Part shown: piece after piece, positions 399 through 63,232 of the stretch
Position numbering within the stretch: the first letter of the stretch is position 1
Layout: the number at the start of each line of letters is the position of its first letter
Assembly: GCF_025353065.1 (NCBI RefSeq)
Contig: NZ_JANXRJ010000103.1
Span: forward strand, 1-64,000
Length of the DNA: 64,000 bases
Reading direction: 5' to 3'
Source: Lapillicoccus sp.
GTDB taxonomy: Bacteria > Actinomycetota > Actinomycetes > Actinomycetales > Dermatophilaceae
The notes under the pieces: generated by a model
What the model saw: only the letters and a program-made list of their open reading frames with translations
What the model was told of the DNA's origin: nothing
The model's database searches: none
Translations under genes and position numbers: made by a program

Positions 399-450
399 CC
401 GGATTGGCGTCCAGACGCGTCATTGAGAGCGCGGTTTCACCCCAATCCGG
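399..450. repeat. Palindromic repeat family A, copy A1
   Basis: CCGGATTGGCGT...ACGCGTCATTGAGAG...ACCCCAATCCGG; same core and arms as 60387-60440 and 61486-61539. Confidence 0.75.
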
Positions 451-495: not shown

Positions 496-945
496 TCAGT
501 GCTGCTTCAGCCCGTAGGCCCGTTCCACCACGACGCTGAGCACGAGACGTCCGTCGCGGACCATCGCGCGACGGTAGTCGTCCCAGTCGGGGTGCTCCTT
601 GCCGGCGATCGCCCGGTAGAGCTCGACGAGCTGATCCACCGTGGGGTCGTCGGGGGCCTCGGCGACCGGTGAGATCTCGGCGTGACCCTCGAGCACGGCA
701 TACGACCAGCCGTCGGCGGAGGTGAGCATGAGCGAGACCCGGGGGTCGCGGCGGAGGTTGGCGATCTTGGCCAGGCTGGTGCGGGTCGAGGTGCGCGCGA
801 CGCACTGCTTCGCCGACCACGCGAAGTTGACGACGGACAGCTGCGGGCGGCCGTCCCGGCGGATCGTCGCCAGCGAGCCGATGGTGCGCGACTCGGCGAG
901 CTCGCGGACGTCCGCGGAGAGGTCGATGCGCGCGATGGTGGCCAT
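496..945 (-). CDS. PPOX-class F420-dependent / pyridoxamine 5'-phosphate oxidase-family protein
   Basis: MATIARIDLSADVRELAESRTIGSLATIRRDGRPQLSVVNF...; split-barrel flavin/F420 family pattern. Confidence 0.8.
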   Translation of the reverse strand: MATIARIDLSADVRELAESRTIGSLATIRRDGRPQLSVVNFAWSAKQCVARTSTRTSLAKIANLRRDPRVSLMLTSADGWSYAVLEGHAEISPVAEAPDDPTVDQLVELYRAIAGKEHPDWDDYRRAMVRDGRLVLSVVVERAYGLKQH

Positions 946-1040
946 GCGCCCATCCCACCGGGAAGGAATGGGCTGCGTCAACCGTTGACCAGCCCGGGTC
1001 CGATCGCCTCCGCCCACCCCAGCATCCCGAGGAGCAGCGC

Positions 1041-1301
1041 ATGTCCGTCCAGACGCCCGACGCCGGCACGGTGACGATGTACAGCACGAGCTGGTGCGGC
1101 TACTGCGCCCGGCTCAAGACCCAGCTCGACCGCGAAGGCATCCCCTTCACGGTCATCGACATCGAGCGGGACCCCTCGAGCGCCACCTTCGTCGAGGAGG
1201 TCAACCACGGCAACCAGACCGTGCCGACAATCCTCTTCCCAGACGGGTCCGCCGCGACCAACCCCAGCGTCATCGAGGTCAAGAAGCGCCTCGGGCTCTG
1301 A
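1041..1301 (+). CDS. Mycoredoxin / glutaredoxin-family protein
   Basis: MYSTSWCGYCARLKTQLDREGIPFTVIDIERD...NQTVPTILFPDG; CxxC and TVPT motifs. Confidence 0.88.
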   Translation: MSVQTPDAGTVTMYSTSWCGYCARLKTQLDREGIPFTVIDIERDPSSATFVEEVNHGNQTVPTILFPDGSAATNPSVIEVKKRLGL

Positions 1302-1340
1302 GCCCATTGGTCGTTGACCCGATAGCCGGTATGCCGCCCG

Positions 1341-2351
1341 TCACCAGTGGACCGCGGCCGCCGATCCCCCGCCCGACTCGATCGCCTCGGTGACCGTCTG
1401 CCCCAGCCAGTGCTCGATGATCCGCTGGGCGATGGAGATCCCGCTCGGGGTCTTGAGCTCGCCCGAACGCAGCTGCGCGACGTAGTCCTCGCGGCTCACC
1501 CACCGCGCCTCGGCGATCTCAACGGGATCGACGGTGATCTCGGTGCCGAGCGCCCGCGCGCGGAAGCCGATCATGCCCGAGGCGGGGAACGGCCACGGCT
1601 GGTTGCCGAGGTAGGTCACGTCGGTGACGGCGATGCCGACCTCCTCGCCGACCTCGCGGGTGACCGCCGCCTCGAACGACTCCCCCGGCTCGACGAAGCC
1701 CGCCAGCACCGAGAACCGGCCCTCCGGCCAGGCCGGCGACCGTCCGAGCAGGAGCCGGTCGTCGGCGTCGATGACCGCCATGATGACGGCCGGGTCGGTC
1801 CGCGGGTAGTGCTCGCTGCCGTCGCGCTCGCACCGGCGCGTCCACCCGGAGAGCGCCGGCGCCGTCGGAGACCCGCAGCGGGGACAGAACGGGTGGGCCG
1901 CGTGCCAGAACATCAGGGCCTGCGCCGTGGTGAAGATCCCGGCGTCGCGGGCGCCGAGGTCGAGACCGGCCGCCCGCAGGTTCTGCCAGCGCCCGGCCGC
2001 CGGGTCGTCGTCGTCAGGGGCGTCGCCGACCACCGCGACGTGTGCCGTGGGGTCGCCCCCCGCCGCGCCGTCCTCCGGTGTCTCCTCGCCGAGGAAGAAG
2101 GCCATGAGATCGCGGTCGGCCTCCGTCGGGGACCGTTGCACGAGAACGGTGCCCGTGGCCTCCGAGGCGGCGGCCGACTGCTCGCTCTCGTGGCTGAGGA
2201 CCTCCATCCGCGCGTCCCGCGTCACCGTCACGACGCGCGTCGCGGGATCGGCCAGCAACCGGCTGATCAGCTCGGGGTCCGCGCGGCGGTGAGCAGCGCG
2301 GTCGAGGGTCCCCCGGGAGAGGGCGAGGTGGGTTAGCGCGTCGTGGGCCAC
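1341..2351 (-). CDS. nudC: NAD(+) diphosphatase (NUDIX, NudC type)
   Basis: FCPRCGSPTAP...CERDGSEHYPRTDPAVIMAVID...GFVEPGESFEAAVTREVGEEVGI (zinc ribbon plus Nudix box). Confidence 0.9.
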   Translation of the reverse strand: MAHDALTHLALSRGTLDRAAHRRADPELISRLLADPATRVVTVTRDARMEVLSHESEQSAAASEATGTVLVQRSPTEADRDLMAFFLGEETPEDGAAGGDPTAHVAVVGDAPDDDDPAAGRWQNLRAAGLDLGARDAGIFTTAQALMFWHAAHPFCPRCGSPTAPALSGWTRRCERDGSEHYPRTDPAVIMAVIDADDRLLLGRSPAWPEGRFSVLAGFVEPGESFEAAVTREVGEEVGIAVTDVTYLGNQPWPFPASGMIGFRARALGTEITVDPVEIAEARWVSREDYVAQLRSGELKTPSGISIAQRIIEHWLGQTVTEAIESGGGSAAAVHW

Positions 2352-22714: not shown

Positions 22715-22738
22715 CCGTGTCCCCCTCACCCGCCCTAG

Positions 22739-22780
22739 CGTCCGCGCGGACGCGACACCGGTGTGCCGTTGGCGCGGACG
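22739..22780. repeat. Palindromic repeat family D, unit 1
   Basis: CGTCCGCGCGGACGCGACACCGGTGTGCCGTTGGCGCGGACG; 39/42 identical to unit 2. Confidence 0.8.
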
Positions 22781-22801
22781 TCAGCGCACCACCCTCCGTT
22801 A

Positions 22802-22843
22802 CGTCCGCGCGAACGCGACACCGGTATGCCGTTCGCGCGGACG
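22802..22843. repeat. Palindromic repeat family D, unit 2
   Basis: CGTCCGCGCGAACGCGACACCGGTATGCCGTTCGCGCGGACG; near-perfect terminal inverted arms. Confidence 0.8.
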
Positions 22844-22859
22844 CAAGCGCGGTGTGCCC

Positions 22860-24167: not shown

Positions 24168-24248
24168 CCTCGTTCCGAACACACGTTCTGTCAAATTTCG
24201 CGTGCTCCGGAGCCCCCGGATTGAGCAGAACGTGTGTTCGGAACGAGG
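24168..24248. repeat. Palindromic repeat family B, copy B1 (23-bp perfect arms) between convergent genes; may act as bidirectional terminator
   Basis: CCTCGTTCCGAACACACGTTCTG ... CAGAACGTGTGTTCGGAACGAGG. Confidence 0.85.
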
Positions 24249-28821: not shown

Positions 28822-28910
28822 CCCTCCTCGTTCCAAACACGCGTTTTACCAAGTTCTCGGGCCCCGGAGGCCACCGGACTTGATAAAACGTGTGTTCGGA
28901 ACGAGGAGGG
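28822..28910. repeat. Palindromic repeat family B, copy B2
   Basis: CCCTCCTCGTTCCAAACACGCGTTTTA ... TAAAACGTGTGTTCGGAACGAGGAGGG (25/27 complementary). Confidence 0.82.
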
Positions 28911-60386: not shown

Positions 60387-60440
60387 ACCGGATTGGGGTG
60401 AAAGCGCGTCATCGATGACGCGTTCACACCCCAATCCGGT
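60387..60440. repeat. Palindromic repeat family A, copy A2
   Basis: ACCGGATTGGGGTG ... CACCCCAATCCGGT (14 bp perfect) around the perfect palindrome CGCGTCATCGATGACGCG. Confidence 0.88.
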
Positions 60441-60451
60441 ATGCCGCGGGG

Positions 60452-61408
60452 TCAGCCCGCGCGGCGGGCGGAGAGCTGGTGGTGGGCGCGGCATACCTGC
60501 TCCATGAACGTCTCGGCGATCAGTCGCATCCCGACGAGGTCGATGCGCAGCATCTTCTCGTCCCCGATCACGACCTCGTTCTGCCGCAGGTTGTCGTCCG
60601 TGACCGCCAGCCCCTGGCGGTGCTGGGCGCCGTCGATCTCGACGACGAGCCCGATGTCCTCCCACGCGACATCCAGATAGATCCGGCCCGTCGAGGTGGT
60701 GCGCACGACCTGACGACTCGGCTCTGGGAGACCGTGGGCGCGGCACAGGGCAGCGAAGTCCAACTCCCCGAGCGCTTGGGCGCCGTCCAGGAGGTCGGCG
60801 ATGACCCTGACGATGAACGGCCGGCGACGGAGCAGCGCGACCTCCGCGACCACGTCATCGAGCTGTCGCGGAGTGGCGAGGCGCTGCTGGACCACCATGC
60901 AGAGCACCAGCGCCGCCTGCCGGTCGCTGACCGCCCACGATGCGGCCCGCAGCGCAGCGATCGCCGGCCGGACGCGGGGCACGCCGACCGAGATCACCTC
61001 AGCCGACTGGCGGGCGATGACCGTCCGCTGCCGCACGTCCGCGACGGGAGGTGGTCGGCTGCCATGCGGCACGGAGACCTCCAAGGCGCCGGTCGTGAAC
61101 CCCTTGAGACCCGCCGCGGTCAGTGCCGTCGCGCCGTCGAGAGCAGCGATGCGGTGGCCGACCTCCCACACGGCACGCCACCAGAGGGCCTGCCCCGACA
61201 ACTCCCCCGTGTGCACGGCGATCGTCTGGCGCCCGTGCGCCTTCCATCGCTTCGCACGAAGCTCGGACCGCACCCCGTGCCGGTCGATACCCAGCCCGCG
61301 CAGGACGTCCCGACTGAGGACGCCCTCGTAGATCTTCGCGGCTCGTTCGGCCGTGGCTCGTCGTCCTTCGCCGTTCGTGCGTCTGTCCATCATTCGACGC
61401 TCGCGCAC
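60452..61408 (-). CDS. DUF559-type nuclease-like protein
   Basis: C-term GRIYLDVAWEDIGLVVEIDGAQHRQGLAVTDDNLRQNEVVIGDEKMLRIDLVGMRLIAE; N-terminal LSRDVLRGLGIDRHGVRSELRAKRWKAHGRQTIAVH wHTH-like region. Confidence 0.75.
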   Translation of the reverse strand: MRERRMMDRRTNGEGRRATAERAAKIYEGVLSRDVLRGLGIDRHGVRSELRAKRWKAHGRQTIAVHTGELSGQALWWRAVWEVGHRIAALDGATALTAAGLKGFTTGALEVSVPHGSRPPPVADVRQRTVIARQSAEVISVGVPRVRPAIAALRAASWAVSDRQAALVLCMVVQQRLATPRQLDDVVAEVALLRRRPFIVRVIADLLDGAQALGELDFAALCRAHGLPEPSRQVVRTTSTGRIYLDVAWEDIGLVVEIDGAQHRQGLAVTDDNLRQNEVVIGDEKMLRIDLVGMRLIAETFMEQVCRAHHQLSARRAG

Positions 61409-61485
61409 GACGCCCGTTTGCGCTACCGCGGCTGACCGGGCTGTGGAAACTGGGACGATCGGCCGTGGGGGTGTGGACGACGCCT

Positions 61486-61539
61486 CCCGGATTGGGGTCT
61501 GAACGCGTCATCGACGACCCGGTATCACCTCAATCCGGG
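61486..61539. repeat. Palindromic repeat family A, copy A3
   Basis: CCCGGATTGGGGT ... ACCTCAATCCGGG (12/13) with core AACGCGTCATCGACGAC. Confidence 0.85.
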
Positions 61540-61610
61540 GCGGGGCGGGCGCCGACCCGGACCTCACGCGGCACGGACCTCACCGTGAGGCGGGGTCGGG
61601 GTGAGAACAG

Positions 61611-61627
61611 GTTTACGGAGGGGTTAC
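61611..61627 (+). promoter_or_regulatory. Possible GlnR-type site upstream of nitrate transporter
   Basis: gtttACggaggggttAC matches the AC-n9-AC spacing reported for mycobacterial GlnR; ends 75 nt before the GTG start. Confidence 0.35.
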
Positions 61628-61702
61628 GGCGCGCCGTTCACCGGCAACATCCGGCTCCTAGGTTCGGAGCCGACACCAGCCCCCCCAGCCAGGAGGACCC
61701 CC

Positions 61703-63232
61703 GTGACCGCGGTGGAGAACGAGACGAACACCGAGGCAACCGTCCCCCCCGGGACGCCCCACCCGACCACGACACCGGAGCGGCCCCGTTCGACGTCCCG
61801 CGCCCGCTCGCGGCTGATCACCGACTGGGACCCCGAGGACACCGTCGCCTGGGAGGCGGGCAACAAGGACATCGCCCGCCGCAACCTCGTGTGGTCGGTC
61901 GCGACCGAGCACATCGGCTTCTCGATCTGGTCGATCTGGTCGGTGATGGTCCTCTTCATGCCGCAGGCGGTCTACGGCTTCACCCCCGCCGACAAGTTCT
62001 TCCTCGTCGCCGTCCCCACCCTCGTCGGCGCCGTGCTGCGCGTGCCCTACACGATGGCCACCGCGACCTTCGGCGGTCGCAACTGGGCCGTCTTCAGCGG
62101 CATCGCCCTCCTCGTGCCGACCACCGCCACGTGGTACCTCATGGTCCACCCCGGCCACTCCTACACGACCTTCCTCCTCGTCGCCGGGCTCGCTGGCCTG
62201 GGCGGTGGCAACTTCGCCTCGTCGATGACGAACATCAACGCCTTCTACCCCCAGCGGATGAAGGGCTGGGCCCTCGGGCTCAACGCCGGCGGGGGCAACA
62301 TCGGCGTCCCCGTCGTCCAGGTCGTCGGCCTGCTCGTCATCGCGAGCCTCGGCAACCGTCGACCCGAGATCGTCTGTGCCGTCTACCTCGTGCTGCTCGC
62401 CGTCGTCAGCATCGGCGCCGCGATGTTCATGGACAACCTCGACCACCAGACCGCCAACGCCGGAGCCATGAAGGACGTCCTCGGGCACGCGGACTCGTGG
62501 CTCATCTCGCTGCTCTACATCGGCACCTTCGGCTCGTTCATCGGCTTCAGCTTCGCCTTCGGGCAGGTCCTCCAGATCACCTTCCTCGCCGGTCTCACGA
62601 GCGGGGCCCCGACCGCGGCGCAGTCGGCCGCCGCCAGCCTCCACGCCGCGCAGATCGCCTTCATCGGTCCGCTCCTCGGCTCGGTCAGCCGGGTCCTCGG
62701 CGGCCGGCTCGCCGACAGGCGCGGCGGCGGCCTGATCACCCTCGTCACCTTCGTCTCGATGGTCGTCGCCGGCGGGATCCTCGTCGCCTCGGGCACGGCC
62801 GACGACGCCACCAAGGGCGCCGCCACCGGTCTGCAGCTCACCGGTCTGATCGCGGGGTTCATCCTGCTCTTCATCCTCTCCGGCATCGGCAACGGCTCGG
62901 TCTACAAGATGATCCCGGCGATCTTCGAGCGGAAGTCCCTCGCCCTCAGGGGCGTCGGCGCCGAGCAGCGTCAGCAGTGGTCGCGCGCGATGTCCGGCGC
63001 ACTCATCGGTATCGCCGGAGCCATCGGCGCGCTCGGCGGCGTCGGCATCAACCTCCTCCTGCGCACCTCGTATGCCGGGTCGGCCAAGTCCGCGACTGCC
63101 GCCTTCTGGGTCTTCACGGCGTTCTACGTCGTTGCCGCCCTGGTCACCTGGGTCCGCTTCGTTCGCCGCCCGAAGGTGGAATCGGTCTCTGCCGCAACGG
63201 TTCCCGACCTCCAGACCCAGACGACCACCTGA
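61703..63232 (+). CDS. NarK/NNP-family nitrate/nitrite transporter
   Basis: GGGNFASSMTNINAFYPQRMKGWALGLNAGGGNIGVPVVQVVG signature; RBS aggagga upstream of GTG. Confidence 0.92.
   Translation: MTAVENETNTEATVPPGTPHPTTTPERPRSTSRARSRLITDWDPEDTVAWEAGNKDIARRNLVWSVATEHIGFSIWSIWSVMVLFMPQAVYGFTPADKFFLVAVPTLVGAVLRVPYTMATATFGGRNWAVFSGIALLVPTTATWYLMVHPGHSYTTFLLVAGLAGLGGGNFASSMTNINAFYPQRMKGWALGLNAGGGNIGVPVVQVVGLLVIASLGNRRPEIVCAVYLVLLAVVSIGAAMFMDNLDHQTANAGAMKDVLGHADSWLISLLYIGTFGSFIGFSFAFGQVLQITFLAGLTSGAPTAAQSAAASLHAAQIAFIGPLLGSVSRVLGGRLADRRGGGLITLVTFVSMVVAGGILVASGTADDATKGAATGLQLTGLIAGFILLFILSGIGNGSVYKMIPAIFERKSLALRGVGAEQRQQWSRAMSGALIGIAGAIGALGGVGINLLLRTSYAGSAKSATAAFWVFTAFYVVAALVTWVRFVRRPKVESVSAATVPDLQTQTTT

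Follow-up and report, generated by a model that had tools for sequence, protein, structure and literature searches.

The stretch of DNA analyzed here, referred to below as the window, comprises 64,000 nucleotides from Lapillicoccus sp., whose genome assembly (5.1 Mb) consists of 343 contigs. It contains a nuclease gene, P0001, that is bracketed by two imperfect palindromes, A2 and A3, and the unit of palindrome, leader, gene, and palindrome is called a cassette in the following (Table 1). A2 ends 11 bp past the stop codon of P0001, and A3 starts 77 bp ahead of its start codon. A preliminary description of the window had placed the two palindromes at 60387-60440 and 61486-61539, and both placements hold. 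It had also named NarK as a neighbor of the gene, with which the MFS protein encoded at 61601-63232 agrees; the other neighbor in the window, identified by reading its frame, is a succinate dehydrogenase subunit. The leader between A3 and P0001 includes the motif TCCACAG. In 84 loci this motif is present within the upstream 130 bp, compared with 0 in a control stretch of equal length. This motif resembles a DnaA box.

Table 1. Positions of the nuclease genes, leader, and palindromes in the window and of the nuclease gene on contig C180 of the same genome.
Feature	Position	Strand	Remarks
Solo palindrome A1	399..450	.	Third copy of the A2/A3 core; no adjoining nuclease gene
Solo tandem pair, palindrome C	22730..22852	.	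Family of the contig C27 gene; missing here in both congeners
Solo palindrome D	24168..24248	.	Family of the contig C75 gene; in one congener, another palindrome with the same ends occupies this place
Solo palindrome D	28822..28910	.	Missing here in both congeners
Palindrome B, 5' of P0002	47729..47805	.	
Second nuclease gene, P0002	47855..48772	+	Same two-part architecture, other subfamily; DUF559 0.00069, AbiEi (PADLOC) 6.1e-7
Palindrome B, 3' of P0002	48724..48803	.	Overlaps the final 49 bases of the P0002 frame; 73% identity with the 5' copy
Palindrome A2	60387..60440	.	3' end of the cassette
Nuclease gene P0001	60452..61408	-	318 aa; open frame, Foldseek, PADLOC, motif conservation
Leader between A3 and P0001	61409..61485	-	TCCACAG at 61441-61447; TCCACA at 61472-61477
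Palindrome A3	61486..61539	.	5' end of the cassette
Seventh nuclease gene, contig C180 (L278, G000:C180)	about 756-1652	-	Palindrome at 1726-1791

The P0001 protein is divided into two parts. The N-terminal half (about residues 20-205) is an AbiEi-like winged-helix region, and the C-terminal half (about residues 210-318) is a Vsr/DUF559-like nuclease domain with the motif E215, D246, E257-x-D259, H263, and N277, in which E215, D246, E257, and H263 are identical in all 136 of the 136 aligned homologues. A Foldseek search with the structure model returned AbiEi as the best match (6y8q, E 1.5e-5), together with Rv2827c (1zel, E 1.4e-3), and on these matches P0001 meets the criterion of an AbiEi antitoxin fold. 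The model was built from 7 sequences, with a mean pLDDT of 69 and low confidence in the nuclease half. For the C-terminal part, PADLOC reports mREase_II (6.3e-5), and a sequence search of the PDB with P0001 gave weak matches at most, one of them between this part and PvuRts1I (E 0.058). The preliminary description spoke of a DUF559 gene at 60452-61408, which holds in part: P0001 scores 12.6 bits against Pfam DUF559 (PF04480) and does not reach the curated cut-off of 20.6. Consequently, the label denotes remote similarity only. Its sister proteins pass either Pfam DUF559, as P0005 does with 24.3 bits, or AbiEi_4. No HUH enzyme was found for P0001 in Pfam, NCBIfam, PADLOC, or Foldseek, which returned either AbiEi and a REase-type domain or no match, and no known transposase or recombinase was found in the Pfam, NCBIfam, and PADLOC searches.

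A2 and A3 have a core of exactly 52 bp in common (60388-60439 and 61487-61538). The inner consensus proposed for both in the preliminary description fails for A2, whose inner part reads GCGCGTCATCGATGACGCG. The pattern CCGGATTGN{30,45}CAATCCGG matches three times in the window, compared with no match in 100 shuffles, and ten times in the whole genome, compared with none for the reversed control. It was not found in any of the 57 relatives searched, two congeners among them. In each half-site, a variable spacer separates an outer from an inner block, and the mismatches of the whole family cluster in the 5-nt spacer of each arm. The eight solo copies of family A lie between convergent genes (four), between co-oriented genes (three), and in one divergent gap, and most solo palindromes are no more than tens of bases away from a stop codon. 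Folded as RNA, the A copies are more stable than shuffled sequence; a search of Rfam returned nothing but sub-threshold chance matches.

At the variable arm positions of family A, the arms agree in 43% of cases, compared with 51% expected if they were independent, and the corresponding values for the repeat of genome G062 are 42% and 48%. The outermost 8 arm positions are fixed by the search pattern and are therefore uninformative on pairing. As the variable positions show no pairing beyond chance, the repeat resembles a symmetric site bound as duplex DNA rather than a hairpin. This argues against recognition as a folded single-stranded hairpin, an inference made from sequence alone and without biochemistry. 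The lengths of the palindrome families (44-52 bp) can be set beside those of two known targets: AbiEi binds a pair of 23-bp inverted repeats separated by 3 bp (PMC7319586), and the target on which an EDxHD homing enzyme forms a dimer is nearly 60 bp long (PMC3943268).

The preliminary description counted two DUF559 genes, which proved to be an undercount, as the genome has at least seven. They were found by searches with PF04480, P0001, and P0002, and the flanks of six of them were read directly. A palindrome lies beside every one of the seven, on at least one side, with a different family for each gene, and four genes have one on both flanks: family A in P0001, family B in P0002, and families D and E in the genes on contigs C75 and C321, respectively. 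The gene on contig C27 has palindrome C upstream, and its downstream flank is cut by the end of the contig, where an apparent second C begins. The gene on contig C65 is a fragment with a palindrome 3' of it. On contig C180, the upstream palindrome, found by search, is about 66 bp long with the arms TCGGACGGGACGA and TCGTCCCGTCCGA, and one arm that matches, TTCGTCCCGTTCGA, is present on the downstream side. Paralogues of the same genome do not share palindromes, either among 80 ordered flank pairs or among 21 comparisons restricted to the palindromes themselves (0 matches in each).

A separate observation concerns the octamer CGGCATAC, which occurs 52 times in the window on both strands (for example at 696-703, 22824-22831, and 60439-60446), compared with 0.8 expected. 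Its density is 4.6 per 10 kb in loci of the family and 0.11 in loci of the class, and with a higher-order background it is not exceptional. By analogy, it may be a Chi-like or uptake-signal-like sequence and is regarded as lying outside the palindrome system.

Homologues of P0001 were found in 111 of 150 genomes of the family and in 107 of 297 genomes of the class, with Phycicoccus, Humibacillus, and Intrasporangium among the named relatives. A scan of genome contigs with P0001 as the sole query returned just 7 loci. The plasmids searched contained no homologue. The sole match in the phage search was L211 (MT837139.1, 3694-4554), an unverified fecal scaffold labeled 'Bacteriophage sp.' that encodes a homologue 52% identical to P0001. 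Two further homologues, L018 and L030, have an internal stop codon in the matching region and are possibly decaying cassettes.

Bracketing by palindromes extends to these homologues. A palindrome score of at least 11 was reached by 106 of the 178 flanks of 89 homologues and by 9 of 177 control stretches (Fisher OR 27, p 9e-31). The controls were taken further out on the same loci and are not limited to intergenic DNA, so that the contrast may in part be one between intergenic and coding sequence. With an ungapped method, palindromes were detected on both sides of 43 of 90 loci, and in 81% of these 43 the two sides match (score >=14); no palindrome was detected at 17 of the 90. In the second subfamily, the two flanks match each other (score >=15) in 67% of cases, compared with 2% for mismatched pairs, and in a class-level set drawn mostly from other orders the values at the same score are 68% and 6%. 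The palindromes flanking the gene are also present elsewhere in the genome, which fulfills one of the criteria for REPtrons. The preliminary description would have been refuted if palindromes were no more frequent at the flanks than at random intergenic regions, and with the controls described it passes this test; the subfamily of its other gene, P0002, shows the same bracketing.

The type of palindrome follows the lineage of the nuclease. Mapped onto the nuclease tree, the presence of the TCGAKGT/TGGAGGT core requires 10 changes, compared with a minimum of 27 after shuffling; without the purF-purM site the values are 7 and 18, and with one locus per genomic site they are 6 and 10 (2000 shuffles). 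Non-syntenic pairs from different genomes whose palindromes match have a mean protein identity of 56.1%, compared with at most 53.6% in 5000 permutations, an excess that is significant and modest. Among such non-syntenic pairs at 65-70% identity, none of 14 has matching palindromes. An initial flank-to-flank cross comparison was set aside, as homologous neighbors of oppositely oriented cassettes had artificially raised its match rates among proteins of high identity; it was superseded by the tests using palindromes only and one locus per site. The repeat TTCGAGGTR...YACCTCGAA reaches up to 89 copies per genome, with a reversed control of 0 throughout, and 36 of the 37 genomes carrying it have a P0001 homologue. 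Copies are present in 23 of the 30 genomes in which that core flanks the sampled gene, compared with 7 of the 46 others. The palindrome type is thus correlated with the nuclease clade, as the preliminary description required, and its idea of a cognate specificity between gene and repeat is supported at the sequence level; biochemical specificity has not been shown, in the absence of binding or cutting data. Tandem arrays of palindromes with a step of about 67 bp were also observed in genome G062 (G062:C1:2252011-2252268 and 2488308-2488519).

Sixteen genomic sites are common to at least two loci. The largest is the purF-purM intergenic region, whose gene names were assigned by reading frames. 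Cassettes occupy it in 22 genomes (at L066 and 21 further loci), 12 in one orientation and 10 in the other, without contradiction among the orientation calls of 213 pairs. Occupancy of this site requires 9 changes on the nuclease tree. For cassette orientation, the purF/purM tree requires 9 changes as well, a number not lower than after shuffling, so that orientation carries no signal. In oppositely oriented pairs, the neighboring genes are 74-94% identical and the nuclease genes 63-74%, whereas the nuclease genes of same-orientation pairs reach 97%. The pairs compared are not independent. Since no opposite-orientation pair exceeds 74% gene identity, recent simple inversions are not seen. Base-by-base alignment of two pairs shows that the left-hand similarity extends into the palindrome and ends within its outer arm.

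Comparison with relatives provides a further view of turnover. For a solo palindrome in another genus, 8 species have none at the corresponding position, and the sdhB-narK interval of one congener holds a different gene and no cassette. The presence of cassettes and palindromes is lineage-specific, and no cleanly resolved empty cassette allele was found among the congeners compared. A clean insertion with a target duplication was likewise not seen in congeners and relatives, as the intergenic stretches concerned have diverged too far even in the nearest species compared. Much of the inheritance of cassettes is vertical, because many pairs of similar cassettes are syntenic. Taken from sequence alone, the turnover data favor replacement of the whole cassette. 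They do not exclude fast evolution combined with old inversions; it is possible that fast evolution of the cassette, together with inversion between the flanking palindromes, mimics replacement.

Several properties are thus established directly: matching palindromes bracket the nuclease gene, and their type tracks the nuclease lineage; solo palindromes occur in many copies, and their presence is lineage-specific; one site has been reused in both orientations, and the catalytic motif is intact. An undescribed family of mobile DNA is suggested, because the unit recurs at shared sites both ways round and its palindrome is dispersed, in many actinobacteria. The explanation toward which the evidence leans by a narrow margin is that the unit is a mobile, homing-like cassette accompanied by dispersed non-autonomous palindromes, with binding, cutting, and movement all inferred. 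In the proposed mechanism, the AbiEi-like halves of two protein copies would probably read the half-sites of their own palindrome as double-stranded DNA. The Vsr-like half would then cut in or beside the palindrome, and repair from a palindrome-bearing copy would import either the whole cassette or the palindrome alone, a step that could equally well prove right or wrong. Because the site is symmetric, cassettes would settle either way round. Solo palindromes would be the non-autonomous copies, mostly tolerated just past gene ends, where they may also end transcription. The homing-like model does not explain how a first palindrome enters a palindrome-free site.

Among the alternatives, the least improbable is that the palindromes are operators, with the AbiEi-like half repressing its own gene and a small regulon, the nuclease half serving defense, and no self-movement. 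Its support comes from the autoregulation of AbiEi proteins via inverted repeats (PMC7319586), the PADLOC matches to AbiEi and mREase_II, the palindrome upstream of the gene, and the lack of a pairing constraint at variable arm positions. It remains unlikely, however, since the gene has a matching palindrome on its downstream side as well, the eight solo A copies are spread over the gap types given above, solo palindromes are missing at the same place in congeners, and genomes hold up to 89 copies. It is very unlikely that the palindromes are bidirectional transcription terminators spreading passively, with the nuclease as a bystander lodged in the same gene ends. The position of most solo copies within tens of bases of stop codons and the RNA folding of the A copies speak for terminators; the same family on both sides of the gene, the tracking of the nuclease tree, and the variable positions without pairing constraint speak against them. 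So does the copy on the promoter side, an argument against a simple terminator that the preliminary description had made from A3 and that is upheld here.

Mobilization of the palindrome as folded single-stranded DNA, as in REP elements, is also considered very unlikely. The outward pattern is that of REP/TnpA-REP, with a cognate gene, co-evolved palindromes, and tandem arrays (PMC8266576), the last represented by those of G062. However, the protein consists of an AbiEi and a Vsr-like domain, no HUH enzyme was found, and pairing is not kept at the variable positions. Also very unlikely is a role of the palindromes as passive homology arms, with recombination there inverting, deleting, or swapping the gene and the nuclease taking no part in the movement. 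This would account for both orientations at one site and for similarity that breaks off inside a palindrome arm, but it leaves the clade-specific palindromes, the multiplication of solo copies, and the invariant catalytic residues unexplained, and it does not fit the gap in gene identity between opposite-orientation pairs (at most 74%) and same-orientation pairs (up to 97%).

The homing-like cassette can be taken further in a bolder reading, which is inferred and a little more doubtful than it is probable. According to this reading, the system would represent an undescribed class of mobile element, in which a free-standing AbiEi-Vsr nuclease recognizes duplex DNA at a symmetric palindrome some 44-90 bp long, mobilizes its own palindrome-flanked cassette in either orientation, and multiplies solo palindromes in trans. 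Each lineage would evolve a new palindrome, so that paralogues in the same cell ignore each other's sites. If true, a large set of actinobacterial proteins that are currently classed as DUF559 or unnamed would gain a function, and a class of dispersed palindromes would be accounted for. Many naturally matched pairs of nuclease and long site would become available, and the spread of palindromic repeats could be tested directly with an enzyme unrelated to REP transposases.

No description of such a system was found in the open-access literature searched for DUF559, AbiEi, and palindromic repeats, a search that did not cover most subscription journals and preprints. Individual components have known counterparts. 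VsrA of Caulobacter, a Vsr-like DUF559 protein, shares the DUF559 domain, which belongs to the PD-(D/E)XK superfamily, and is required for the SOS response in cells without a methyltransferase; unlike the nuclease described here, it is tied to a cytosine methyltransferase, and the main text of that paper does not mention palindromes (PMC12907096). The AbiEi antitoxin of type IV AbiE systems and Rv2827c share the fold of the N-terminal half, and AbiEi binds inverted repeats in a 23+3+23 bp arrangement (PMC7319586). However, AbiEi is without a nuclease domain, whereas the palindromes described here also lie downstream of the gene and are dispersed. On reading the frames inspected here, no AbiEii partner gene was noticed. 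The EDxHD homing endonuclease I-Bth0305I is likewise a multi-domain nuclease that acts as a dimer on a long target (PMC3943268). Its catalytic domain is akin to Vsr. It is described among the phage-derived homing enzymes of group I introns (PMC3943268), whereas the present gene is free-standing between two copies of a repeat at gene ends. There is also a likeness to REP/TnpA-REP (RAYT) systems, or REPtrons, in which a chromosomal enzyme gene is likewise accompanied by co-evolved palindromes and many gene-less copies (PMC8266576). REPtrons rely on an HUH enzyme acting on folded single strands, whereas an AbiEi-Vsr fusion, a symmetric site, and no pairing constraint at variable positions are found here. 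The system works like REP yet fails the REP enzyme test; evidence that the nuclease moves the cassette would justify a new class.
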